The notes below the pieces were generated by a model. The model saw only the letters and a list, made by a program, of their open reading frames with translations, was not told the DNA's origin and ran no database searches. A DNA stretch of 64,000 bases from positions 1 through 64,000 of the forward strand of contig CAMWSU010000002.1 of NCBI GenBank assembly GCA_947176965.1. Reading direction: 5' to 3'. The position numbers and the translations under genes are program-made. Source of the DNA: an uncultured Lachnospiraceae bacterium (GTDB lineage: Bacteria; Bacillota; Clostridia; Lachnospirales; Lachnospiraceae). This document shows, in pieces, positions 10,930-54,300 of the stretch; the stretch's first letter is position 1, and each line of letters opens with the position of its first letter.

Positions 10930-12666
10930 CTATTGGGAATCGCCCGTTTTCTGGGAGATCCGGAAGATAACAAACTCGGCGGGCTTCACCGGCGCTACGC
11001 CGATCACACAGACCAGGCGCCCGTTATCAATGTCATCCTGACTCATGGTATCACGCCCGATATTCACGAAAAATGCCTCCTCGGGTGAGGTTCCCGCAAT
11101 GGAACCGTCCCGCCACATGCCGAGCAGGAATACCTCGATCGTGCGCTTCACACGCACCCAGAGCACCTCATCGTTCGGCTCAAATACCGCCCAATTCGTA
11201 TTTGCCCTAATGGATTCTTCAATATAAATGAACAGCCGGCGGACATTGATATATTTCCAGCTTGCATTGCTCGTCGCCGTCCGCGCGCCCCACACGCGGA
11301 TTCCCATACCCGGAAAGCTGCGGATCAGATTCACGCCCTTGGGATTTAAGATGTCCTGCTCCCCTTTGTTAAACGGGCAGTCCAATCCGACGCAGGCACG
11401 CACGACCTCGTTTGCGGGCGCTTTATGCACGCCCCTCGTGTTGTCCGTCCGCGCATAAATACCGATGACGGAACCGGAGGGCGGGATTGCAATATTTTTT
11501 TTATCCAAAGGATCAAACACCGTCAGCCACGGGTGATATAACGCCGCGTACTCCGAATCAAATATATCCCTGTGCGCGATGACATCGTCAATCTTCTTTG
11601 CATCACGCGGCAGATCGAGCACCGCGACGCGGCTCGCCGTGTTTTCGCAATGCGCAACGAGCATAAGCTGTACATTCGGATCCGTGATACCCGGCACCGC
11701 CATGATGGACACATTATCATTATCGAGAAACGCCTGAATCCCGCTGCGTTTTCCCGCGCCGTTGTCCGTTCCGATAAAATCCGCCGCCGTGAGCGACGCG
11801 ACGCTGCCGTTGCTTCCTCCGCTTAATGAAACCGAAAGCACCGCTTTTTCCTCATCCCCCTGCGCTAAAGAAAGAAACGGCGATGTGACCGCATCACCCT
11901 CCGGAATCTGACAGGAGACTGCGATCATATCGGATTTCGCCGTCTTTTTTTCAATATAATTGGGCGCATCGATATTAAAAGAAACATTCTCATACAGCTC
12001 CACCTGATCGTCCATGCGCACCTCAAGCGAGAGTTCACAGGTAGAGATGGTCCTTGCCGGAAGTAAATCCTGATCGACAACGCTCTCGTCAAACTCCGAC
12101 GCAAACTCTATGATATTGTCCTGACATTTGACGACACGGTTGTAGGTGACGGTCGTCTTGTCCGTATACATGACAATATCGCCCGCTGCAAATCCTACTC
12201 CGTTCTTGACATGATACCGTTTGCCGCCTGCTGTTTCCAAGATTTCCAGAATCTGTGTCTTTGCCTTGGATGCGGGTGCGATCACAATGTTTAGGTTATT
12301 TCCCCACACACCCGGATTTTTCGCCGTAAATGTTAAAACCGGCGTATCTGCGGGAAGATTTCCCTCCGCCGCCTTTGCGTCCTGTGGCGCAACCCTGGAA
12401 ATGTAGGCTCTCGCGCCCCCGTTGATAAAAAAGTGTTCCACTGCATAGGCAAGAAAGCGGTTCTCCCCGAATTCATTCTCCGAGAGATAACCGCCGTATT
12501 TCCTCTTAAAATCCGCAAAATTTGTGACAAGCTGCGGCACGCCCTCGATTGCTCCGCGTTCTGATAGCCCGACAAACCCCGCCGTGCTCGTTCCGACGCC
12601 CTCCATCGGTTTGCTCCCGGATTCAAATTCCTCTACGTAAACTCCCGGTGATAAGTATTCTGCCAT
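10930..12666 (-). CDS. Contractile tail sheath protein
   Basis: 578 aa; MAEYLSPGVYVEEFESGSKPMEGVGTSTAGFVGLSERG ... RRLFIYIEESIRANTNWAVFEPNDEVLWVRVKRTIEVFL. Confidence 0.97.
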   Translation of the reverse strand: MAEYLSPGVYVEEFESGSKPMEGVGTSTAGFVGLSERGAIEGVPQLVTNFADFKRKYGGYLSENEFGENRFLAYAVEHFFINGGARAYISRVAPQDAKAAEGNLPADTPVLTFTAKNPGVWGNNLNIVIAPASKAKTQILEILETAGGKRYHVKNGVGFAAGDIVMYTDKTTVTYNRVVKCQDNIIEFASEFDESVVDQDLLPARTISTCELSLEVRMDDQVELYENVSFNIDAPNYIEKKTAKSDMIAVSCQIPEGDAVTSPFLSLAQGDEEKAVLSVSLSGGSNGSVASLTAADFIGTDNGAGKRSGIQAFLDNDNVSIMAVPGITDPNVQLMLVAHCENTASRVAVLDLPRDAKKIDDVIAHRDIFDSEYAALYHPWLTVFDPLDKKNIAIPPSGSVIGIYARTDNTRGVHKAPANEVVRACVGLDCPFNKGEQDILNPKGVNLIRSFPGMGIRVWGARTATSNASWKYINVRRLFIYIEESIRANTNWAVFEPNDEVLWVRVKRTIEVFLLGMWRDGSIAGTSPEEAFFVNIGRDTMSQDDIDNGRLVCVIGVAPVKPAEFVIFRISQKTGDSQ

Positions 12667-16050: not shown

Positions 16051-16995
16051 ATGTTCAAATTGAGCTACTATCTGAAACGCGCACGAACGATCGGCTTTCT
16101 TGATACTGTAAAAAAAATCGCAGGCTTTGAGGAGATCTTTACCTGCGCATTCCTAAAACACGGCGAGACCAATTTTCGACATCTTCCCTACTCGCACTCT
16201 TATTGGTATGCAGATCCCATACTGGTCAAATCCGGTCATTCCAATTATGTATTCATGGAGATTTTTGACAGAAAGAGGCAGAAAGGCCTGATCGGGTATA
16301 GCACAATTGAGGGCAGGCATATGACTCCTCCCCGCATCATTCTGGAAGAAAAGTGGCATCTGTCCTTTCCCATGATCTTTACCTATGACCACACGTTTTA
16401 TATGATACCGGAATCCAGTGAGATCAGCAGCCTCTGTCTTTATCGCTGCGTCCGATTTCCCGATCATTGGGAATTATGCGCAAAATTCCCAACCGAAGAT
16501 CCTCTTGTGGACACGATCGTATGGGAGCAAACCGAGGACAACATCCGCCTTCTCTCCTGTGCTAATCCCAAGGACGCTCCTCTTACTTGTAAATGGATCC
16601 AGTATGATCTTTCCTGTACTGACGGCAAATGGGATCTTCATCCCGTCTCTTCTTACAATGCCGGGACAAATTATGATTATCAATCCAGAAATGCCGGACC
16701 GCTCTGTATCGGAACAAACCCGGATATTGTGATCCATCCTGTTCAGGTCAGCACTTCCAGTACCTACGGAAAGGAACTCTATCTCTATCGCTATGATAAG
16801 GATGGGAAGGATCCGAAAAAAGAAGCGCTGCTGCAAAAACTTTCCGTACAGGATTATCGCATTCCTTCCTTAAAACATCACAAACTGTACGGCACTCACA
16901 CCTATGGCATTAATGAGCAGTATGAAGTGGTCGATATCAAGCTTTATTCGTGGCAGCCCCTAAAGTGGTTTTACCGGATCACTGCCAGACGTTAA
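16051..16995 (+). CDS. Glycan-cluster protein resembling the glucosamine inositolphosphorylceramide transferase N-terminal (GINT1_N-like) family
   Basis: SYWYADPILVKSGHSNYVFMEIFDRKRQKGLIGYSTIEGR...SFPMIFTYDHTFYMIPESSEISSLCLYRCVRFPDHWEL. Confidence 0.6.
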   Translation: MFKLSYYLKRARTIGFLDTVKKIAGFEEIFTCAFLKHGETNFRHLPYSHSYWYADPILVKSGHSNYVFMEIFDRKRQKGLIGYSTIEGRHMTPPRIILEEKWHLSFPMIFTYDHTFYMIPESSEISSLCLYRCVRFPDHWELCAKFPTEDPLVDTIVWEQTEDNIRLLSCANPKDAPLTCKWIQYDLSCTDGKWDLHPVSSYNAGTNYDYQSRNAGPLCIGTNPDIVIHPVQVSTSSTYGKELYLYRYDKDGKDPKKEALLQKLSVQDYRIPSLKHHKLYGTHTYGINEQYEVVDIKLYSWQPLKWFYRITARR

Positions 16996-17070: not shown

Positions 17071-18225
17071 TTATCCATGATATGCCTTCATCAATTCCTG
17101 ATAAATGGTTTCTTCCGAATACTTACGCTCATATTCGGCGTATGCTTCTCTGCATAATGCGCCGTATTGCTCCTCCGTCAGCGCTCCGACCGCCGCAATC
17201 TTTTCTGCCAGATCTTTGCTGTCACCGACATGATACAAAAATCCCGTCTCACCATTTCTGACGATCGTACTCACATTGGGCGTGTCCGCAGCAATCACAG
17301 GACATCCTGCGGCATATGCCTCAAGGATTGTCATGGGCATCCCCTCATATAATCTGGATGAAAAGATGAGTCCCCTTGCCCGTGCAATATAGGACAACGT
17401 CTCCTCATGAGAAATCTTCCCCTTCATTTCCACATTGGTCATGCCGCGCTTACGGAGCACTTCCCGCAATTCAGCAAAATCTTCGCCCTCTCCGATCAAT
17501 ATCAGTTTTTCCCCAGACTGTTTTTCAAAGGCATCCAGTACCTCAAAGGTTCCCTTAATCCGCTCCGTGCGTCCGACACAGACAAAGAACGCTTCCTTTT
17601 CCGTGATTCCCTTTCCTTCGGACACATAATTCGCTTTCAGTATGATCTTATCAGCCGGAATCGCTTTTTTCAATTTTTCCTCACAGAATTTTGTCAGGAT
17701 CAGATAGCAATCCGGTTTCTGAAAGGTTCCGATTCTCCTGTGTATCCAAAACATGACATCTACAAGAATTGTCTGTACTTTGGAGTGACGGTAACAACCG
17801 TACTTGACCGAATGCAGGATCCCTTTTTGCAGACATTCCTCGCAGTTATGCCCATCCCTGTACAGCAGCCCGTTCGCGCATACAAAACGCATATTGTGAA
17901 GCGTCTGCACAAGCCGGCATCCTTGCTTTTTGGCGACGCCATACACAGAAAAACTAACCAGCGGGAGCGTATTATGCACATGCACCACCTCGATCTGATG
18001 CTCCCGTATCAGCCTGCATACCTCACGCCTGCTCTGAAAGGAATACAGCGTTCGAAATGGCAGCAGAAGTCTGCCCGCGATTCCGTTCTTTCCAATCTGC
18101 TGATTGGAAAGAATGTAGGTGATCACATGATGTCCGCGGTTTCGGAGAAGCTGCACCTCATTCTCAACAACGGTGTCTTCTCCGCCCGCAAATTTATATT
18201 TGTTGTGGATAATTAAAATATTCAT
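17071..18225 (-). CDS. GT4-type glycosyltransferase
   Basis: MNILIIHNKYKFAGGEDTVVENEVQLLRNRGH...VCVGRTERIKGTFEVLDAFEK...RLYEGMPMTILEAYAAGCPVIA. Confidence 0.9.
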   Translation of the reverse strand: MNILIIHNKYKFAGGEDTVVENEVQLLRNRGHHVITYILSNQQIGKNGIAGRLLLPFRTLYSFQSRREVCRLIREHQIEVVHVHNTLPLVSFSVYGVAKKQGCRLVQTLHNMRFVCANGLLYRDGHNCEECLQKGILHSVKYGCYRHSKVQTILVDVMFWIHRRIGTFQKPDCYLILTKFCEEKLKKAIPADKIILKANYVSEGKGITEKEAFFVCVGRTERIKGTFEVLDAFEKQSGEKLILIGEGEDFAELREVLRKRGMTNVEMKGKISHEETLSYIARARGLIFSSRLYEGMPMTILEAYAAGCPVIAADTPNVSTIVRNGETGFLYHVGDSKDLAEKIAAVGALTEEQYGALCREAYAEYERKYSEETIYQELMKAYHG

Positions 18226-18306
18226 AGTAATTTATCATATCATTTCGCCTATCACATTTCAAGAAGTTTGAACCATGCAATTTGAGTATGCCCCCCTGAT
18301 TTCCTG

Positions 18307-19251
18307 TTAGACAAATTTTTTCAAAAAAGAGCACCTCCGCATCAGCCACACCGATCCAAAACTTGCCGCTGCCGTAACAATCACCCTGCCGACACCCTCC
18401 CTAATCTCTACCCCACAGACATATCGTGTGACAAAGTCCCATATCGTCAAATAAAAATCATGAATGAGGTAAACCCCAAAACACATCTCTGCCCCTTTTG
18501 CTATGATCCGCGCATTCTTTTCCCCAATGTCATGATATTCCAAAAGCTTCCTGCACAGTAAAAAGATCATCACTACCGCACCGCACAGGAACACACCATG
18601 AAACATACCTCCTGCTTGCAGACACATAATCACATACGATAACATTCCAAACGCACATATGGCATATCCCCACATTTTCTGCCACTGTACTGTATGGAAA
18701 TAGTATCCTGCCGTAAAATAGAATGCATACCTCGCCCAGTTCCAGTTAATAATGTCGGTCATCCATGAAGTCCATTCCAGTTTGGGAATATTCTGCAGTC
18801 CCGGAACTGCTATTGAAAAAAAGTAAGAAACTCCCAAAAAATACTTTAACAAGATTCGATTTTCCGCAATTTTACTAAAAAAGGGCATTCCCATATAAAT
18901 ACCAACGATCAGATAGCAAAACCAAAGATGATACCTCCCCTGCGCCAGCATTACCAAGATTTCCTTTACAGAAAGTGCCTCATTTCTCATAAGCGGTAGA
19001 AATACCCCATAAAGTATCGTATAAAACACAGACCAAAAACAGAACGCCATACCAATCCGCAGTATATTTCGCGAATACAGTGTCTTGAGATCAATTTCTT
19101 CTTCCCTGGACAGCCACACCGCCCCACTGATCATTACAAACAACTCTACCGCCCAAGAAAAATATCTTCCCATCCCAGAATGAATACCGATCACACCGAC
19201 TATTGCGATGATCCTGAGAATATCACAGTAAACGATACGTTCTCTTCGCAT
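18307..19251 (-). CDS. Membrane acyltransferase (acyltransferase-3 family-like)
   Basis: RERIVYCDILRIIAIVGVIGIHSGMG, multi-TM. Confidence 0.8.
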   Translation of the reverse strand: MRRERIVYCDILRIIAIVGVIGIHSGMGRYFSWAVELFVMISGAVWLSREEEIDLKTLYSRNILRIGMAFCFWSVFYTILYGVFLPLMRNEALSVKEILVMLAQGRYHLWFCYLIVGIYMGMPFFSKIAENRILLKYFLGVSYFFSIAVPGLQNIPKLEWTSWMTDIINWNWARYAFYFTAGYYFHTVQWQKMWGYAICAFGMLSYVIMCLQAGGMFHGVFLCGAVVMIFLLCRKLLEYHDIGEKNARIIAKGAEMCFGVYLIHDFYLTIWDFVTRYVCGVEIREGVGRVIVTAAASFGSVWLMRRCSFLKKFV

Positions 19252-19287
19252 AACATGTACTCCTTGATCTGTCCTTTATGTTGTTTC

Positions 19288-19587
19288 CTAATCATTTTGC
19301 CTGATTGAGTCTATGAGATTTGAAATTGCCTGCACCTGACCGTCAGTTAATCCGCCAGCATCAATAGAAGGACAGATTATCTTGATTTCCCTTCCCAGCA
19401 GATAATCCGTGTTGCATTTATAAAGATATGAGAGTGAAAGCAATACCTCAACGCTGGGCGTACGCTCCCCTGTCTCATATCCTGATATAATGCTGGGTGA
19501 AATCTTTAAGATATCTGCAACCTGTTTTTGTGTCAGGTTATTTTCCATGCGCAATTCCTTTAATCGTTCTGCCAATCCACTTATCAT
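19288..19587 (-). CDS. XRE-family HTH regulator
   Basis: LAERLKELRMENNLTQKQVADILKISPSIISGYETGERTPSVEVLLSLS. Confidence 0.93.
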   Translation of the reverse strand: MISGLAERLKELRMENNLTQKQVADILKISPSIISGYETGERTPSVEVLLSLSYLYKCNTDYLLGREIKIICPSIDAGGLTDGQVQAISNLIDSIRQND

Positions 19588-19703
19588 TTCAAATATAATA
19601 CCCCTCTACACTTTTCACATTATTTTTAATTGTACATTTTTTTGCAACACATAGGGTGTTTCGCAAAAAATCAAAACTACGCCTAATGTGTTCGCTTATT
19701 GTG

Positions 19704-19731
19704 TTTACTTGTTCTCTTCAAATGGTATAAT
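19704..19731 (+). promoter_or_regulatory. Candidate extended -10 promoter
   Basis: TTTACT - 16 bp - TATAAT with upstream TGG; upstream of 19781 ORF. Confidence 0.5.
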
Positions 19732-19780
19732 TAATTAAAAGAATACTGCATAGAAAGATACGAAAATTCGGAGAATATAA

Positions 19781-21022
19781 ATGAAATATGCAAATCTCAA
19801 TTATCACTGGCGAAATGATGAAATAAATATAGGAGATGATATTCAATTATTGGCGATAGACTATCTGTATACTTTGATGGGCATTCCGGCAGAAGAAATT
19901 GTCAGAATTCCTTTTTATGAACTATGTGACTACAATGGTAAGGAAGTGATGTTACCCATTTGTTTTCCGTTTCATAATTATATAAAAGACGACTTCTATA
20001 CACAATTTTCAGAAAAGATCACTCCGGTTTTCTTACATTTAAGCATCGGCGGAATAAAGCTTTCTTCAAAAGATATCGAATACTTAAGAAAATATGAACC
20101 AATCGGCTGTCGGGATTTGAATACATTACGTGTTCTGCGGCGAGAAGGCATCACGGCTTATGCCAGCGGATGCATTACCCAGATTTTTCCCGCCAGAAAA
20201 AATGAATCTGCATCCCAAAGCGTCTTCTTAGTTGATGCAGACCGGATGTTGTTCGATCATATTCCAATTGAACTCAAACAGCACGTCAAAGTAAGAACAC
20301 ACGCTTTAAGATACTCCGAAATAGAGAAAACATCCCGGGAAATGGCCATCGCCCAATTAAAAGAATATGCAGCGGATGCAGCGTTCATTATTACGTCCAG
20401 ATTGCATTGCGCGCTCCCTGCTATTGCAATAGGGATTCCGACTATTTTTGCCGCGCCGAAAAGATCCCATAGATTTGAAGGGATCGACAGGATGGTTCCA
20501 TTTTACAGTGCAGAAGAATATTCCAATATTAACTGACATTCTGTTGCAGTTGATGATCGGCAGATAAAAAATAAGATGATTGATTTAGACATCAGACGGC
20601 TCAAGCAGGAACACGTTGATGAAACAGAACTGCAACAGATCAACCGGATTTTTGATACAGAGTCCACAAACCAATATCATATGGATTATATCACGGAATC
20701 TGTCCGCTTCATCAATGCTTTAATGAAAAAGCAGCACGGCGCAATCCGTTATTACTTATGGGGAATTACGCCAACGGCTTTAACCCTGTTTTGGCATATC
20801 AAAACGTATTATCCGAAATCTCTCCTATTGGGCGTCATTGATAAAAATAAAAAAATAGAGTTTTGCGAAACCGTTTCAGGCAGTAAGGATGAAATTATTA
20901 AAGAAAAAGATGCATGGGTGTTTGTCTGTACCCGAAACGCTCTCAATGAATCCAAAGATTTTTTTGCGCGTAATGGGATGAAACTTTATTATGAGTGTTG
21001 CGGAGACCAATATATCTATTAA
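19781..21022 (+). pseudogene. Polysaccharide pyruvyl transferase with C-terminal Rossmann-like region, interrupted by one in-frame TGA (20534-20536)
   Basis: ORFs 19781..20536 and 20576..21022 are in the same frame; joined translation ...YSNIN*HSVAVDDRQIKNKMID... is colinear with 49773..51035 and 51122..52453, which have W at the stop position. Confidence 0.8.
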
Positions 21023-21068
21023 GTTTCACTCCTTAATCTGTTCATCCCCAATTCAGATATTATGCCTC

Positions 21069-23150
21069 TTATTCAAACACAAGCCCATATAGCTTCCATC
21101 CTCTGTATGAATACACTTCCTCCTCCGCCACAGGGTGCCGCTCCTTGATGCCGTAAGCAGTCTCGGCCCCGGCACAATCAAGATAGAAATAAACATACCT
21201 CCCTGACGGATGCTCCTGTATCAGGCATTCCACGGCCTCCGCATCAGGAACCATGAACACTGCAAACGGAATATTGTCACCGGATGCCGTTATTTCTCTT
21301 CTGGAAACCTTTGGGTTCCAATATTCCACATATTCGCCATACTCTCCTTCCTGAAGGATTTCCACCTCCCTGAATCCGTCAAAATAGTAAGTACATTGAT
21401 CTACAGCCGGAAACAAGACAATATCCCTTTCAAAATCCACGACCGCGAGCGCCTCCCACAGAGCTTTTTCCAACCAAAGTGTCTGCTTGTTATAAATCAT
21501 GGCGTCTCCCGGTACCGTATTCACACTACCGGTAGAGATCATGGTTCCATCCCCGATCGGAAACGTATCAAATGCGTACTTCGACACCGGATCGATCGTC
21601 CGATAGCAGGCTGTCAGCAGCAGTGCCGACAAAACCGCCGGCACCACAGGAAGAAACCGCATTCTGGTCATCTTGATATCGTCAGACAGCTCTAGCACAA
21701 ACACGTCCGCTGTCAGATACAGACACATCGGAATGATGTTGGAATATCTGGCATGATTCACTGTCACAAAAAGACAACTAAAAACGGTAAATCCCATCTG
21801 CGCCGATAACAATGGAAAAAGCCAAAAAACATTGCGGCTTTTTCCACTCAGAAAAAGCCAGAACCCATTCCGGCTAATGCCGCCTCGTGCAAACAGAAAC
21901 ACGCCCAAAAGGAGCGCCAATAGGACAAAGATCCAGTTGAAATTAAAAAGATAAAGAACCTTCAGTTTTTCTGTGACATACTTCATATCCAGCGCAAAAC
22001 CGCCGGTTCCGCCCCATCCGCCCAGTATCAGGATCGTTCCGCCCCACAAAACGGCAGCAAGCGCCATTGCATAATACTGCGGTCTGCAAAACAGCCCTTT
22101 CACCCTGTCCGCAAAACGACCGGTTCCCTTCCCACACAATTCGACCGCCACAATACCGATGCACAAAAACCCATAGATCACAATGGCAGGCTCTTTGATA
22201 AAACAGAAAAATATCCCCGAAACAACCTGCAGTATCCATTGTTTTTTGACTGTAAAATACAGTACGACCGGAAACAGACAGATACAATAAAAATCCAGAC
22301 TATAGTAATTCACCATTCCAAGCATAAACGGCGACCACGCATAGACCGCTGTGCACACCGCATAAAAAATCTCTTTTTTCTCCGGTACGACCGCCCTTAA
22401 TATCCCATAATACGCACAGATACCGGTCAGGAAAACGATCACGTTCCCAAGGATCATTCCCTCTGCCACATTCTGACCCATAACAGCCGTACAAAACCGG
22501 ATCATCGCACTGACAGTCAGGGAAATATGCCCATATAAAGCCATACTGCTGAACGAATAGACCGATGCCTGGCGGCTTGTCATATAATAACCCCAGCCGT
22601 CCCACTTAAACTGGAACATCGCAGGATCATATACTAAGAGCAGCGAGATCAGACACAGCAGAAACAGAAATTTATGAGAAACAATGTTCTTTTTCCATAA
22701 CTCCCATCCGTTTCTGACCGCCTTCTTTTCTATACGGAACAGATACCAGCACGCGGCTGTCGCCACCGCTGCCACAAGGAACTGTGAACAGACTTTATAC
22801 CGCTCCTCATACAGACCTCCCGCTCTGATTAAGAAAACGAGGTTTGATACCAGAAACAGAATACTGCATATCCATAAAACCCCGCTGCAGACAAGAATCT
22901 GTCTGCGCAGCCCGCTTTGTCCGGAAACATTCCGGCACAAACCGATATATGCCGCTCCAGCCGCAGCGCAGGCAAGCAGATGAAGCAGCATCAGAACCTC
23001 ACTTTCATGGGATGCCGCCAATGTGGAAAAGCCAAATCCAAGATAAGCGCTGCTTACGGCAGACAGCCCCAGTATGGTTCCCTGCACCTTTTTATTTTTC
23101 AGGAATTTTTTCACAAACAATGGTTCATCGGGCAGAATCCATCTGCTCAT
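21069..23150 (-). CDS. Large multi-TM membrane protein (GT-C/GT39-like glycosyltransferase candidate)
   Basis: 693 aa with many hydrophobic segments; glycan cluster context. Confidence 0.55.
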   Translation of the reverse strand: MSRWILPDEPLFVKKFLKNKKVQGTILGLSAVSSAYLGFGFSTLAASHESEVLMLLHLLACAAAGAAYIGLCRNVSGQSGLRRQILVCSGVLWICSILFLVSNLVFLIRAGGLYEERYKVCSQFLVAAVATAACWYLFRIEKKAVRNGWELWKKNIVSHKFLFLLCLISLLLVYDPAMFQFKWDGWGYYMTSRQASVYSFSSMALYGHISLTVSAMIRFCTAVMGQNVAEGMILGNVIVFLTGICAYYGILRAVVPEKKEIFYAVCTAVYAWSPFMLGMVNYYSLDFYCICLFPVVLYFTVKKQWILQVVSGIFFCFIKEPAIVIYGFLCIGIVAVELCGKGTGRFADRVKGLFCRPQYYAMALAAVLWGGTILILGGWGGTGGFALDMKYVTEKLKVLYLFNFNWIFVLLALLLGVFLFARGGISRNGFWLFLSGKSRNVFWLFPLLSAQMGFTVFSCLFVTVNHARYSNIIPMCLYLTADVFVLELSDDIKMTRMRFLPVVPAVLSALLLTACYRTIDPVSKYAFDTFPIGDGTMISTGSVNTVPGDAMIYNKQTLWLEKALWEALAVVDFERDIVLFPAVDQCTYYFDGFREVEILQEGEYGEYVEYWNPKVSRREITASGDNIPFAVFMVPDAEAVECLIQEHPSGRYVYFYLDCAGAETAYGIKERHPVAEEEVYSYRGWKLYGLVFE

Positions 23151-47562: not shown

Positions 47563-48845
47563 ATCTTTTGTGCATGCATGTGAATGTTTTTTATTACAAT
47601 TGTCCCGAACATGACAGCCAGTAACAGCATGATGCCCCCATAACAGACGGCTGCTCCGAAGCTCCCCCATGTTCTCACAACAACCGGAAACATGCATAAT
47701 GACAAAATTGCCCCTGCACCGTAACCGATTATAATATACCGTTGGAGACGCATCACCGTCAGAATCACAACAAAGAAGCTTACACTCGCAAGTACCCCTC
47801 CGCCCCCTACCAGCAGCAATAATTCCGTCCGATATGCTGTCAGATCCGTATGATATAGTAAAGACAATACCGGAACTCCCAGCAGATAAGCCCCCATGAC
47901 ACACAGACATGTCAGGAGCAGGATGATGCCTGTCTGGGTTTTGATCTTCCTGACGATCTGCTCATATCTGCCTTCCCTCCATGCTGCTGCAATGGATACG
48001 ATGATGGGCTGATACAGAAAGCTGCTGAGCAGTCCTACCACAAAGACCGGCATGCTCACAAAGCCCCAGCATGCCGTATCCTGTTCCGTCATATAGACAT
48101 CAATCGAATATTTTGGCGCATTGCTGATATAGAAGGTCATAAACCCCATCAGACACAGCGGCAGACATTCCTTTCCCAAAGAAACGATATTCTTCGGATA
48201 CACCTTTTCGGATTCCTGCCGAAAGCGGGGATATGTCCGATATTTGCAGACGAGAAACAGGGTCAGCGAAACAAGCAGCGCCGCAGCCGTAGTCCGGAAC
48301 AGATTCCGTGTAAACGGCAGCAAAACCAAATATGTGAGCAGAATGCCGGACCATCTGAGTACAAACATCTTAGCCCCCGTATCCAGTCTCCCGTTTTTCT
48401 GATACAGCCCCCAGTATACATCCTCAAACGCTTCCACTGCAAAGATCATGCACATGAGCAGCACGGTCCCCATTTTATACACAGAATCGCCCCGCATGAA
48501 TACCCCATACAACGCACAGACAATACTGATCAGTATCATACTCACTACCGTAACGACCCTCAGGCGGAAATATACATGAAAAGAATAGTTTCCCTGATCC
48601 GTGATCTGATAATTCCTGACCCCGTATTTCCCGATCGCCGCAAGCAGATTCGCTGTTGCAAACGCGATCGTCAGAATGCCCGCATCTTCAAGTCCTGTAA
48701 CTCTTGTTACAAGCATGGACATTAATACAGCTTCAGACGCGTTTAATAAGCCCGCTGCCGTGTTCCATATATAATCCCGTTTTGAAACTGTCTCCTCACG
48801 GATTTTTTCTTTTTTCTCATTGTCTTTGTATGTCGTCTTCATCAA
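47559..48845 (-). CDS. Wzx/MATE-like polysaccharide flippase
   Basis: KRDYIWNTAAGLLNASEAVLMSMLVTRVTGLEDAGILTIAFATANLLAAIGKYGVRNYQ; multi-TM. Confidence 0.85.
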   Translation of the reverse strand: MMKTTYKDNEKKEKIREETVSKRDYIWNTAAGLLNASEAVLMSMLVTRVTGLEDAGILTIAFATANLLAAIGKYGVRNYQITDQGNYSFHVYFRLRVVTVVSMILISIVCALYGVFMRGDSVYKMGTVLLMCMIFAVEAFEDVYWGLYQKNGRLDTGAKMFVLRWSGILLTYLVLLPFTRNLFRTTAAALLVSLTLFLVCKYRTYPRFRQESEKVYPKNIVSLGKECLPLCLMGFMTFYISNAPKYSIDVYMTEQDTACWGFVSMPVFVVGLLSSFLYQPIIVSIAAAWREGRYEQIVRKIKTQTGIILLLTCLCVMGAYLLGVPVLSLLYHTDLTAYRTELLLLVGGGGVLASVSFFVVILTVMRLQRYIIIGYGAGAILSLCMFPVVVRTWGSFGAAVCYGGIMLLLAVMFGTIVIKNIHMHAQKI

Positions 48846-49767
48846 AATTAATCAATTCCTTTTCGATCACCGGAAGCTGCTTTGTGACTCTTTTCAGAAT
48901 CGTTCCGACATACTCGCCCACCAGACCGATAAACAGAATCTGCACCGATCCTATGAAAAATATTCCGATCAGCATCGGTGCGGTTCCTGCCGAAAACCGA
49001 TTCCAATAGATCAGCTTTAGTATCAGATAGACAATGCCGATGAGAAAACAGATCATCGACATCAAACAGCCCATTACCGTCACAGTCCTGAGCGGCGCAG
49101 TAGAAGTCGAGACCAGCGTGTCCAGCGCATAATCAAAATACCTGCCAATATTATAACTGGATTTCCCGCTTTTCCTCTTATTCTGTTTGTACGGAATCAG
49201 CTTGACAGGATATCCCATCTCAGCAATTAACGTTCGAAAGGAAATATCCGGATCAGATTCCAACATCTCTTTCAAAACCTTTCTGTCATGTAAGCAGATA
49301 CCGGATATGTGCTTATATTGGGGAATCGGCGAAAACATATTGATGATATTGTAGTATAAATCACGCAGTTTGTATTTGACAACCCCTTCCTCACTGGCAG
49401 TCTTCTGCCCGTAGACCAACAAATATCCTTCCTCCCATGCCCTGAGGAACTCGGGAATCAGCTCCGGCGGATCCTGCAAATCCGAAGCAAGGGCGATCAC
49501 AACCTCTCCTGTACAATGGCGCATCGCGTTTCTGGGCGATTTGCGCGGGCCGTAATTCCGATTATTTATGATCACTTTTATGCGTTTGTCCTCGCTCGCC
49601 AGCCGGCGCAGAACATCCTGCGTCCCATCCTCGGAAGCATTGTCCGAAAACACGATCTCATACCGGTATGACTCTTTTTCCATTACGGCTTCAATTCGTT
49701 TCACCAATTCTTCCACATTGTTTACTTCATTATAGCAGGCAATGCAGAAACTAATCTTTTTCTCCAA
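48817..49767 (-). CDS. GT2 polyprenyl-phosphate glycosyltransferase (GtrB-like)
   Basis: KISFCIACYNEVNNVEELVKRIEAVMEKESYRYEIVFSDNASEDGT...; C-terminal TMs. Confidence 0.9.
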   Translation of the reverse strand: MEKKISFCIACYNEVNNVEELVKRIEAVMEKESYRYEIVFSDNASEDGTQDVLRRLASEDKRIKVIINNRNYGPRKSPRNAMRHCTGEVVIALASDLQDPPELIPEFLRAWEEGYLLVYGQKTASEEGVVKYKLRDLYYNIINMFSPIPQYKHISGICLHDRKVLKEMLESDPDISFRTLIAEMGYPVKLIPYKQNKRKSGKSSYNIGRYFDYALDTLVSTSTAPLRTVTVMGCLMSMICFLIGIVYLILKLIYWNRFSAGTAPMLIGIFFIGSVQILFIGLVGEYVGTILKRVTKQLPVIEKELINFDEDDIQRQ

Positions 49768-49772
49768 CTCAC

Positions 49773-51035
49773 TTACCCCGCTGTTGTGGCCATGCTGAGA
49801 AAATCAACCGTTTCTCTCTTTCCCAGTTTCGCAAGCATCTCTTTGGCACATGCCTCGCCGGACCACGTCGTAATAAAAATGTATTCTTTCGTATATTCTT
49901 TGAGTGCTTCCGGCTTTAGAATCGGTACCCCAAAAAACTCTCCGGTACAATAGCTGTCTATCACGGCTCTACATCTGCTGTCCGGATATATCTCCTGTAT
50001 AACCTGATATACATTCATTCCAATCTGTCCGGCTCCCCATAAAACATAATCAAAAGAGCCTTTTCTCTCCTCCGGCAGTCTTTCAAGCACCTTTCGATAA
50101 TAGTTCCCATAGGGACTCCTGTCCCTGATCTCATAAAAATAGCCCAGATCGGCTGCTTCCCCAAATCTTTGCACGGTCTCCTTGATCTTTGCGATCGCAA
50201 TATCAAGCATCTGCGCTTTTCTGTCCTCATAAGAAACAGTCTGTCCTTCCCATTGTATCATAGAATATGTCTCCGGGGTAAAAATCCGTAAATAACGGTC
50301 AATCCATCCCATCCTCGGCGAAAGGTTGTCCGTCACGGGAATTACCGGAATTCCCGCAGACATACATGGCGACATACAATGCAGTCTTGAGGTAACGACC
50401 AGCTTTGCCTGCGTTTTGTACGTCTCCCAAAGCTCATTCACGATTTTCTCAACATAGTTCTTGTCCCTTACTTCCTTCTCATTACGAATATGGCTCACTC
50501 TGACGATTTCGCCGGAAAGTTCTCCTTCATGCCCGCGATAATACGCTTCAAACGATTCCGGAACATCCACGAAGAAAATCTTATTTCCCTTTCCGGCATG
50601 TTCCACGCGAGGCATTGTTGCGGTAACACATCCATATAAATAAGCCGGGATATGATTTGCTCTCATAATTTCCATCGTAAACTCGTCCCTGCATCCAATC
50701 GGCGCATAAAATCTGAAATAGTCCGCCAGCTCCTGCGGAAGCCGCTGCGCGGAAAAATAGGAAAGTCCCAAAAAGACCGGTATGATACGCGGAGGCAGCG
50801 GGATGATATCGATAATCCAGTTAAAAGACAGATTGATATTGATCGGGAGGAGCAGATATTCTCCGTCATATCGATGAATCTCTGTTAATTCAATCCTTAC
50901 AACGTCCTCCCTTTTAATCCCCATACGCTCATATATATACAGAACTGCCTCTGTCTGCATCCAGTCTCCCAAATTGATATAGGACCTATCTTCTTTGGAA
51001 CTGATCGGAGTGACTACCAAAACTCCATACTTCAT
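49773..51035 (-). CDS. Polysaccharide pyruvyl transferase with C-terminal Rossmann-like region
   Basis: SRLHCMSPCMSAGIPVIPVTDNLSPRMGWIDRYLRIFTPETYSMIQWEG...; C-terminal FDYVLWGAGQIGMNVYQVIQEIYPDSRCRAVIDS. Confidence 0.82.
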   Translation of the reverse strand: MKYGVLVVTPISSKEDRSYINLGDWMQTEAVLYIYERMGIKREDVVRIELTEIHRYDGEYLLLPININLSFNWIIDIIPLPPRIIPVFLGLSYFSAQRLPQELADYFRFYAPIGCRDEFTMEIMRANHIPAYLYGCVTATMPRVEHAGKGNKIFFVDVPESFEAYYRGHEGELSGEIVRVSHIRNEKEVRDKNYVEKIVNELWETYKTQAKLVVTSRLHCMSPCMSAGIPVIPVTDNLSPRMGWIDRYLRIFTPETYSMIQWEGQTVSYEDRKAQMLDIAIAKIKETVQRFGEAADLGYFYEIRDRSPYGNYYRKVLERLPEERKGSFDYVLWGAGQIGMNVYQVIQEIYPDSRCRAVIDSYCTGEFFGVPILKPEALKEYTKEYIFITTWSGEACAKEMLAKLGKRETVDFLSMATTAG

Positions 51036-51121
51036 AATCTGCCTCCCTTAGAATGATTTATTATGTTCGGAAGAAAACAGTGAGCGTATGGGTGATTAAA
51101 AACTACCATTCCCTCTTACCG

Positions 51122-52453
51122 TCACAGACAAACATTGGAAAAGGAATTTTGATACCCCGCCTCCTTTTCATGTTTTTTTCCATCCTCGCAGCATTGATAA
51201 AATCGGGTATGTCCGATTTTTTCAAAATAGCAATAGGACTCCAAAATAGCCGCTCCGGTACATACAAAACACCACGCGTCCTTGTGATCCTCCAAGATTT
51301 CCTTCGTATCCGTTTTTACGCCGTGAAAAATCAATCTTTTTTTCTTATCGATTACTCCTGCCAACCGTGCATTTGGATAGTGCTCTCGGATATAGGCATC
51401 CACGGATGATGCAGTTTGCGTAACTCCCCATAAAATATAAGAAAACGAATCATTTATATCGAAATTACGCTCTATATAATCCTCTGTATTCGTGTAAAAT
51501 TCTACATGGCATTCCTCTGCCGCATTTGTCTCATAAAATGCACTGATCCTAAAGATACTGCTGTATTTCTCATAGGACTCTCTGATGCGCTTAGCAGCAT
51601 TTTGTATCATAAGCGCTTTCAGTTCTTCGTACATAATCGGAGCCGGATTCCAGTCAATCGTGCTCCACTCCTGCCGTGTATACACATGAATCAGACTATT
51701 TATCCCCAAAAATCTGAACGACATTCTATCCTTTGCAAATATTACCGGTATCCCCATTGCAACACAGGGCAGCGCTCCATGAAGTCTTGATGTAATGATC
51801 AGTTTTGCGCTTTTGCAATAATTTCCGTATACTTCCTCCGCTTTTTTCTCGGCTCCCAAGGGGCAATCTTCCGGATAGTAGAGATGACTTACAAACACTG
51901 CCTGCTTCTTGATTTCCTCCGGGATATAGGGAAGCAGATCATCCTGAATATCAATACAATAAATGGTATCTCCCTGAATCGTTTTATCCCTTGCAGGCAA
52001 AGATGCACTCATACACCCGCCCAAGTAAGCTGTGATTCCATGGGCACGCATAATGCGCATCGTATACCCGTCCCTGCATCCGATTGGTTCAAATCGTCTC
52101 AAATACTGTACTTCTTCATCGGAAAGGTGTGTATCTAAAACAGACACTCCAAGAAACACCGGGATGATCTTCGGCGAGAACTGCGTGATCTTCATTTCCG
52201 CATGATACCCATATAGTGGAAAAGAAATCGGCAGTATCACATATTCCCCGTCCCAGTCGGCAAGCCTGTGAAAGGGAATACGCAAGATATCCTTCTCTTC
52301 TATCCCCATTGTTTTATATAAATACCGGATTGCCAAAAGCTGCACATCATCACCGATTGTCAATCTTTCGCTTCTGCTAAAGTCAAGGTTTCCAAATTTT
52401 ACCCCTCCCCCGCACATAACACTGTTTTCTTTGTCTCGCATCATTTTGATCAC
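51122..52453 (-). CDS. Polysaccharide pyruvyl transferase with C-terminal Rossmann-like region
   Basis: IITSRLHGALPCVAMGIPVIFAKDRMSFRFLGINSLIHVYTRQEWSTIDWNPAPI...; C-terminal FSYILWGVTQTASSVDAYIREHYPNARLAGVIDKKKRLIFHG. Confidence 0.82.
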   Translation of the reverse strand: MIKMMRDKENSVMCGGGVKFGNLDFSRSERLTIGDDVQLLAIRYLYKTMGIEEKDILRIPFHRLADWDGEYVILPISFPLYGYHAEMKITQFSPKIIPVFLGVSVLDTHLSDEEVQYLRRFEPIGCRDGYTMRIMRAHGITAYLGGCMSASLPARDKTIQGDTIYCIDIQDDLLPYIPEEIKKQAVFVSHLYYPEDCPLGAEKKAEEVYGNYCKSAKLIITSRLHGALPCVAMGIPVIFAKDRMSFRFLGINSLIHVYTRQEWSTIDWNPAPIMYEELKALMIQNAAKRIRESYEKYSSIFRISAFYETNAAEECHVEFYTNTEDYIERNFDINDSFSYILWGVTQTASSVDAYIREHYPNARLAGVIDKKKRLIFHGVKTDTKEILEDHKDAWCFVCTGAAILESYCYFEKIGHTRFYQCCEDGKKHEKEAGYQNSFSNVCL

Positions 52454-52509
52454 CTTCGCTATCAGTCAGATTCACTTGAACCCCATACTGTCCATATCAA
52501 AGCTATTCT

Positions 52510-54300
52510 CTATTTCAGAATATACCTCTCCAACTCTTCCTTTGATAAAAAGGGACTCATATCGTGGAGCGGAGGCGTAATAAATTCACCGTTCTCATTC
52601 ATTTTTGATTCGATCCTTGGTCCTCTGATCTCATCAATTCTTTCCAAAACCTCCAAGATACAGGGACCTTGTTCTTTCATAAGCCATTCTATCCCGTCTT
52701 CTAACTCTCCGACGGAATGACATCTGCGAAACGCGATTTCAAACGCGTCTGCCACCTTTGAAAAATTCGGGAAGCTTACCCCGCTCTTTTCGTCACATCC
52801 CGTATAAGTACCTCCGAAAAAATTGGAGCAGGTCTGCCTGATAGCGGCATACCCGTCATTACTGAATATGACAATCTTGATCGGAAAACGATGATAAGAG
52901 ATCGTCTGCAGCTCCTGCAGATTCATCATAACAGATCCGTCTCCCGTAACACAATAAATGGGACTTTGGGTTGCTGCTGCCGCGCCGACCGCCTGCGTAA
53001 TGTCGTCTCCCATGGAACCGCAGTTATAATTGACAAGCACCCTTTGATCCCTGTGACTGATCCCTTCCTGCAATATTCCAAGGACGCAATTGCTGTTTCC
53101 AAGCACGACGACCGCATCGGACTCCGCTTCTTTCATGAACTCCCGCCAAAAAAGAAGTGCCGGCACCCTTTCTTTTTCATCAAGCGCTCCGTGGCGCAAA
53201 AGCATCTCATACTTAGGAATACTGTCATACACATATCTGCAATGTTCTGTCCATGCCTCCTTTGCCGTCACCTTGATTCCCAATGCATTCCATTGACGGA
53301 AGAAGGATTTCAGATCCGTACAGATCAGCCGCTCGATTCGCAATCCCGGCTTTTTACTCTCATCTGCACACGCATCCACCATGATGATCTTTGCATTTTC
53401 AGCAAATCCCTCCTGATAAAAGCCTGTCTGCTTATAGGACAGACTGTTTCCCAACACCAGGATCAGATCCGCACTCTGCAGGATAAAATTGCCGCATCTG
53501 GGACCACTGCTTCCGGACATGCCATAGTAATTCTCTTCTCCATGATAATTGATATCCGCCTGGAGCGCACCGCCAACAATCGGTATTCTCACATTCTTCG
53601 TGAATTCCCTGTAGCCATCGATTGCATCTCCGGTCCGTATTCCTGATCCCGTAAGAATACACGGTCTCTCTGCCTCAGACAACATACGCCCTATCTCTCC
53701 AAGCTGTCCCGCATCCACCCCTTCACCGAATGTGGCAGACTCGTCCTCATACAGATCCTTTTCTTCCACCATCGCTCCCTGCACGTCCAACGGGATGTCC
53801 AGCCATACAGGACCTCTGCGTCCCTCCAATGCGATCATGATCGCTTTGTTCAACTCTCTTTTTATCGAAAGCGGATCTCTCACCAATACCGCATATTTTG
53901 TAATACTCTTTACCTGCGAAATGATATCATTTTCCTGTACACCGCGGGAGCGCAGCTTTAGTCCTGTTGCCGCTACCGTTGTTTCATATCGGGGCATCCC
54001 GGATATGACGAGCATCGGAACACTGTCAACCCATGCCCCCTGTACTCCATTGAGCGCATTGATTCCGCCCGGTCCGCTCGTAACACAGACAGCCGCAAGC
54101 TTCCCTGTCAGCCTTGCGTATCCCTCCGCCGCCATCGAACAAGCCTGCTCATGATGATTATAGATTGTTCTGATCCTGTCCTTTGCAAGTACAAAAGCAT
54201 TATTCAGATGCATGGCTCCTCCTCCGACCACACTGAAACAGTCGGTGATGCCTCTTTCGATCAATTCCTCTACCAGTATATCCGCAACACGCTTTTTCAT
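52510..54300 (-). CDS. ThDP-dependent enzyme (second paralog)
   Basis: CFSVVGGGAMHLNNAFVLAKDRIRTIYNHHEQACSMAAEGYARLTGKLAAVCVTSGPGGINALNGVQGAWVDSVPMLVISG...GDGSVMMNLQELQTISYH. Confidence 0.93.
   Translation of the reverse strand: MKKRVADILVEELIERGITDCFSVVGGGAMHLNNAFVLAKDRIRTIYNHHEQACSMAAEGYARLTGKLAAVCVTSGPGGINALNGVQGAWVDSVPMLVISGMPRYETTVAATGLKLRSRGVQENDIISQVKSITKYAVLVRDPLSIKRELNKAIMIALEGRRGPVWLDIPLDVQGAMVEEKDLYEDESATFGEGVDAGQLGEIGRMLSEAERPCILTGSGIRTGDAIDGYREFTKNVRIPIVGGALQADINYHGEENYYGMSGSSGPRCGNFILQSADLILVLGNSLSYKQTGFYQEGFAENAKIIMVDACADESKKPGLRIERLICTDLKSFFRQWNALGIKVTAKEAWTEHCRYVYDSIPKYEMLLRHGALDEKERVPALLFWREFMKEAESDAVVVLGNSNCVLGILQEGISHRDQRVLVNYNCGSMGDDITQAVGAAAATQSPIYCVTGDGSVMMNLQELQTISYHRFPIKIVIFSNDGYAAIRQTCSNFFGGTYTGCDEKSGVSFPNFSKVADAFEIAFRRCHSVGELEDGIEWLMKEQGPCILEVLERIDEIRGPRIESKMNENGEFITPPLHDMSPFLSKEELERYILK

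Follow-up and report, generated by a model that had tools for sequence, protein, structure and literature searches.

Does an in-frame TGA codon within a polysaccharide pyruvyl transferase-like gene of an uncultured Lachnospiraceae bacterium reflect a gene that has lost its function, or a codon that the cell reads as tryptophan? The gene lies in a window of 64,000 nucleotides (the whole stretch of DNA that was analysed), and the genome to which the window belongs is a 3.4 Mb draft in 172 contigs, 93% complete. The coordinates of the interrupted gene, its neighbours and its intact paralogs are collected in Table 1.

A single stop at a tryptophan position

On translation, the frame at 19781-21022 has one internal stop, a TGA followed by C, and is otherwise open. 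Re-translation agrees with the sequence-only reading that ORFs 19781..20536 and 20576..21022 are one frame, split by the TGA and by the 13 sense codons that lie between it and the next ATG (20576). Such a layout by itself is weak evidence, because the window holds 28 same-frame pairs parted by one stop with at least 100 codons on each side, and it is homology that counts. The part before the stop is 42% identical to the paralog at 51122-52453 over 251 amino acids (E 2e-71). Beyond the stop the alignment continues collinearly, with 30% identity over 149 amino acids (E 3e-24). Across the junction, both intact paralogs align without gaps and have W opposite the stop.

The placement of the TGA at a W of both paralogs had been claimed beforehand, and it can now be extended to 13 near homologs, drawn from the genome itself, from Pseudobutyrivibrio ruminis (L002) and from further genomes within the family and order. 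Twelve of the 13 carry W at the stop column and one (L012) carries F, with the column being absent from three remote homologs. Neither a stop at this column nor a split gene was seen in the relatives found, and all near relatives with a complete frame extend beyond the position of the TGA. In a tree in which most forks are weak, the interrupted copy groups with 51122-52453 and with the homolog L008, on a longer branch (1.23 vs 0.58 and 0.72). Among 60 relatives, a DNA-level search yielded no further copy and a protein-level search only the three copies of the genome itself, while a search of genome contigs found one relative carrying two adjacent copies, and a search of plasmids two remote, partial relatives. 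Searches of phages and viral contigs gave no relatives, such that a phage origin is not indicated.

Table 1. Positions in the window of the interrupted gene, its immediate surroundings and its intact paralogs
Feature	Position	Strand	Evidence
Acyltransferase (Acyl_transf_3), same slot as interrupted gene	18307..19251	-	PF01757 E 3e-28
Divergent HTH regulator adjoining interrupted gene, same low-GC slot	19288..19587	-	PF01381 E 4e-15
Sigma-70-like promoter-like site, TTTACT, 16 nt, TGnTATAAT	19704..19731	+	Consensus scan
N-terminal 251 codons of interrupted gene	19781..20533	+	PF04230 E 9e-10; 42% to paralog 51122..52453; Pvg1p 5ax7 Z 14.0
In-frame TGA at family Trp position	20534..20536	+	Sequence and alignments
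Frame after TGA: last GT-B helix, linker helices, Rossmann-like C-domain (predicted)	20537..21019	+	30% to paralog, E 3e-24; structure model
TAA, original full-length stop	21020..21022	+	Sequence
Intact paralog 1	49773..51035	-	PF04230 E 2e-12; W at stop column
Intact paralog 2, closest in genome, 37% overall	51122..52453	-	PF04230 E 3e-13; W at stop column

These alignments bear on the possibility of two separate genes, the second of which would start at ATG 20576. The ATG lies conveniently 13 codons past the stop, but a ribosome-binding-site-like (Shine-Dalgarno-like) sequence was looked for upstream of it and none was found. Moreover, an ORF from 20576 would begin with the last helix of the GT-B domain, thus within that domain, and none of the relatives found shows such a split, making two genes a scarcely credible arrangement. 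For the first ATG (19781), GGAG is present upstream. The promoter-like site farther upstream has 10 of 12 consensus matches and an extended -10, with the count of such sites in the region being no higher than in shuffles.

Decoding of TGA in this genome

TGA is an ordinary stop codon in this genome. It is the commonest stop among the gene ends in the window (18 of 42), and prfB, encoding RF2, is present and complete; the in-frame TGA flagged in prfB sits in the frameshift region, consistent with the programmed frameshift that is usual for RF2. None of the 130 ABC_tran matches in the genome has an internal stop, and of the tRNAs recovered from the draft (93% complete), the sole tRNA-Trp has a CCA anticodon and a five-pair anticodon stem topped by a G-U pair. 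These results strengthen the earlier argument that general recoding of TGA is unlikely given that other genes here end in TGA, and the suppressor tRNA-Trp(UCA) that the sequence-only reading had thought worth looking for did not turn up among the tRNAs found. A code in which UGA specifies tryptophan was rejected on the same grounds, neither a tRNA-Trp(UCA) nor a tRNA-Trp(CCA) with a 4-bp stem having been found. A selenoprotein was likewise rejected, in that a search of the 93% complete draft did not find selA, and the homologs carry Trp or Phe, not Cys. As a separate observation, the G-U pair of the tRNA-Trp(CCA) (L041:1500-1572) is at the top of the anticodon stem, where unpairing promotes stop reading elsewhere.

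UGA is the leakiest bacterial stop; in E. coli and Salmonella its basal readthrough is 10^-2 to 10^-3 (PMC4989110). Stress raises stop-codon readthrough (PMC10057733), so that a trace of full-length protein would be expected here without a special mechanism. A more particular proposal is functional readthrough by tRNA-Trp(CCA), which would yield full-length enzyme in a small, regulated quantity. Decoding by tRNA-Trp would restore the family residue, and the anticodon stem of the sole tRNA-Trp is closed by a weak G-U; in E. coli, a tRNA-Trp(CCA) with a 4-bp anticodon stem reads UGA, and an unpaired stem top promotes stop-codon reading (PMC13092985). However, the G-U is still a pair, and the stem is therefore not a 4-bp stem. 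The TGA-C context noted from the sequence is confirmed, but five other genes in the window also end in TGAC. In addition, no relative found has the same stop, and the downstream codons lack excess conservation, being somewhat worse conserved than expected. Functional readthrough is thus quite improbable, and of the earlier suggestion of readthrough inserting Trp only the generic UGA-C context remains in its favour.

More doubtful still is a variant in which the UGA would act as a low-level switch, with the near-cognate tRNA-Trp(CCA) restoring Trp in a small fraction of the products that depends on conditions, giving mainly an enzyme without the C-domain and a little of the two-domain form. Here, decoding of UGA would be helped by the weak G-U at the top of the tRNA-Trp anticodon stem. 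A programmed readthrough gene, in which the stop is conserved in orthologs, was rejected; the relatives found, which are the paralogs of this genome and homologs from other species, have Trp or Phe in its place or lack the column. The sequence-only reading had also raised an ON/OFF allele, a suggestion that did not survive. No repeat tract or clear invertible element is found at the TGA, the stretch 18200-21200 holds weak, short repeat pairs only, and a phase switch is something other than a point nonsense change, for which reasons a phase-variable gene was rejected.

What the stop would remove, and its age

The PF04230 (polysaccharide pyruvyl transferase) profile matches the N-terminal part with 39.3 bits, against a curated cut-off of 25.3, and the encoded enzyme would presumably attach pyruvate to surface sugars; no match for the pyruvyl transferase-like proteins was found in NCBIfam. 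An AlphaFold2 model of the read-through frame was built from a five-sequence alignment (mean pLDDT 74.9), and its top structural match is the pyruvyltransferase Pvg1p (5ax7; Z 14.0, rmsd 3.9, 239 residues within residues 1-256). Many GT-B glycosyltransferases follow, matching residues 1 to about 278, and residues 321-413 match a Rossmann domain of Rex over 93 residues (Z 10.1). As judged from the model, the TGA (codon 252) removes the last GT-B core helix (260-275) and the C-terminal Rossmann domain. The locus is a PF04230 gene by descent, with a product that, as terminated, is predicted to be without a complete GT-B core and not to be a complete member of the family.

The conserved motifs GDD (18-20), GCRD (109-112) and TSRLH (205-209) are all present and all upstream of the TGA. 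They are the likely counterparts of the catalytic residues of Pvg1p, for which D106, R217 and R337 have been proposed (PMC4872226), and TSRLH is the one motif of the three that aligns by sequence, to the ITDRLH region of Pvg1p. With every putative catalytic motif before the stop, and with the C-terminal part forming a separate Rossmann-like domain in the model, the truncated 251-residue product may be a working or altered enzyme for which the C-terminal domain is dispensable. The conservation of the two parts is consistent with this possibility. Conserved residues of the N-terminal part are kept normally (56/65 vs 685/819 in relatives, p 0.73), whereas in the C-terminal part, 9 of the 18 columns conserved in relatives are kept, as compared to 149/190 for the other sequences (Fisher p 0.017), in a small test that counts related sequences as independent. 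On the other hand, the stop falls before the last GT-B core helix, the GT-B matches align through about residue 278, and the near relatives with a complete frame all run past the stop position; a functional truncated form is improbable.

The 161 codons after the TGA contain no second stop and no frameshift, indicating that the stop is recent if the C-terminal part is unconstrained. Under neutral drift, with 0.1 indel assumed per substitution, the probability of 161 intact codons is 0.26 for 0.02 substitutions per site and 0.03 for 0.05, making drift beyond about 0.05 unlikely; without indels the latter probability is 0.38, and so the bound on age hangs on this assumption. An open C-terminal frame is also expected under function by readthrough. 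The drop in conservation of the C-terminal part is too big for drift in the time that the absence of stops allows. It is a hint, from sequence comparison, that the C-domain had probably diverged before the stop arose, or that a form without the C-domain is favoured.

The probable explanation, and the best supported of those offered earlier, is that a nonsense mutation has recently struck an accessory pyruvyl transferase-like gene, whose UGA would be read through no more than UGA usually is. The gene is the third of its polysaccharide pyruvyl transferase-like kind in the genome, an accessory copy within a variable slot of a glycan locus, and would have been hit at the codon for a conserved Trp, the simplest change being TGG to TGA. 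RF2 would end translation after 251 residues, leaving a product that would keep the putative catalytic motifs. Because the GT-B-closing helix and the C-terminal Rossmann domain would be lost, this product is most likely unstable or inactive. A few ribosomes may decode the UGA as Trp, as at bacterial UGAs generally.

A rival explanation is a sequencing, assembly or strain-mixture artefact, where the organism or most of the population has a sense codon. The assembly is a draft of many contigs, and one substitution accounts for everything, with no second stop or indel. Yet single-base substitution errors are uncommon in a contig consensus and no positive sign of error was seen, making an artefact unlikely. 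In likelihood, an artefact or strain mixture ranks roughly above a functional truncated form, which in turn ranks above functional readthrough.

A variable glycan slot and its known counterparts

The slot that holds the interrupted gene has a GC content of 35-42%, as compared to 44-49% for the greater part of the flanks examined. The interrupted gene was not found in four congeners, and nothing matches the acyltransferase in the equivalent regions of three congeners. In the best-conserved congener (G004), the flanking genes are kept on one side (84%, 77% and 73%), and other sugar genes, a nucleotidyl transferase and an epimerase, are found in place of the interrupted gene; a second congener (G001) has a similar nucleotidyl transferase/epimerase pair, and a third (G003) the nucleotidyl transferase. 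The other flank (21069-23150, minus strand) encodes a 693-aa protein with no Pfam match that is present in all four congeners at 41-54% identity; for this gene as a flank in G004, the figure is about 40%. The slot is an accessory, variable position in a surface-glycan locus.

Other genes of the window were noted in passing. A phage tail-sheath-like gene (PF04984, PF17482) at 10930-12666 on the minus strand lies beside the glycan locus, and may belong to a contractile injection system or a prophage. At 16051-16995 on the plus strand, a match to GINT1_N (glucosamine inositolphosphorylceramide transferase 1, N-terminal) is kept in G004 beside a GT1 gene.

Both intact paralogs are 30 kb away from the interrupted gene, clustered with a TPP enzyme and a GT2 gene. 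The TPP enzyme may share a sugar modification with the neighbouring pyruvyl transferases. The cluster (48817-54300, minus strand) is mirrored in Pseudobutyrivibrio ruminis (L002:4-8245), where a TPP enzyme, two pyruvyl transferase-like genes and GT2 genes are found.

The interrupted gene has the look of an ordinary accessory gene that was inactivated recently, and not of a new reading of the genetic code. As an ordinary recent pseudogene it would document gene turnover in a surface-glycan locus, and serve as a warning against taking a lone stop at a Trp position as evidence of recoding. Were readthrough to prove functional, the gene would offer an example, rare in nature, of glycan modification regulated through UGA.

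Among known systems, one close likeness is to nonsense-inactivated accessory genes of surface polysaccharide loci, which share the single stop, the intact rest of the frame and the variable glycan slot; in the one genome considered here, nothing notable differs. The system with a 4-bp-stem tRNA-Trp(CCA) (PMC13092985) has in common with the present case a UGA at a Trp position, and the weak G-U top pair recalls its shortened stem, but here the stem has five pairs, RF2 is present, TGA is a regular stop and one gene only is concerned. With Pvg1p (5ax7) and PF04230 the gene shares the profile match, the GT-B fold and the Arg/His motif, TSRLH resembling the ITDRLH region. Unlike Pvg1p, the present gene is interrupted by a stop, and the intact members of its subfamily, for which pyruvyl transfer from PEP is putative, carry in addition a Rossmann-like domain at the C-terminus, beyond the Pvg1p-matching part.
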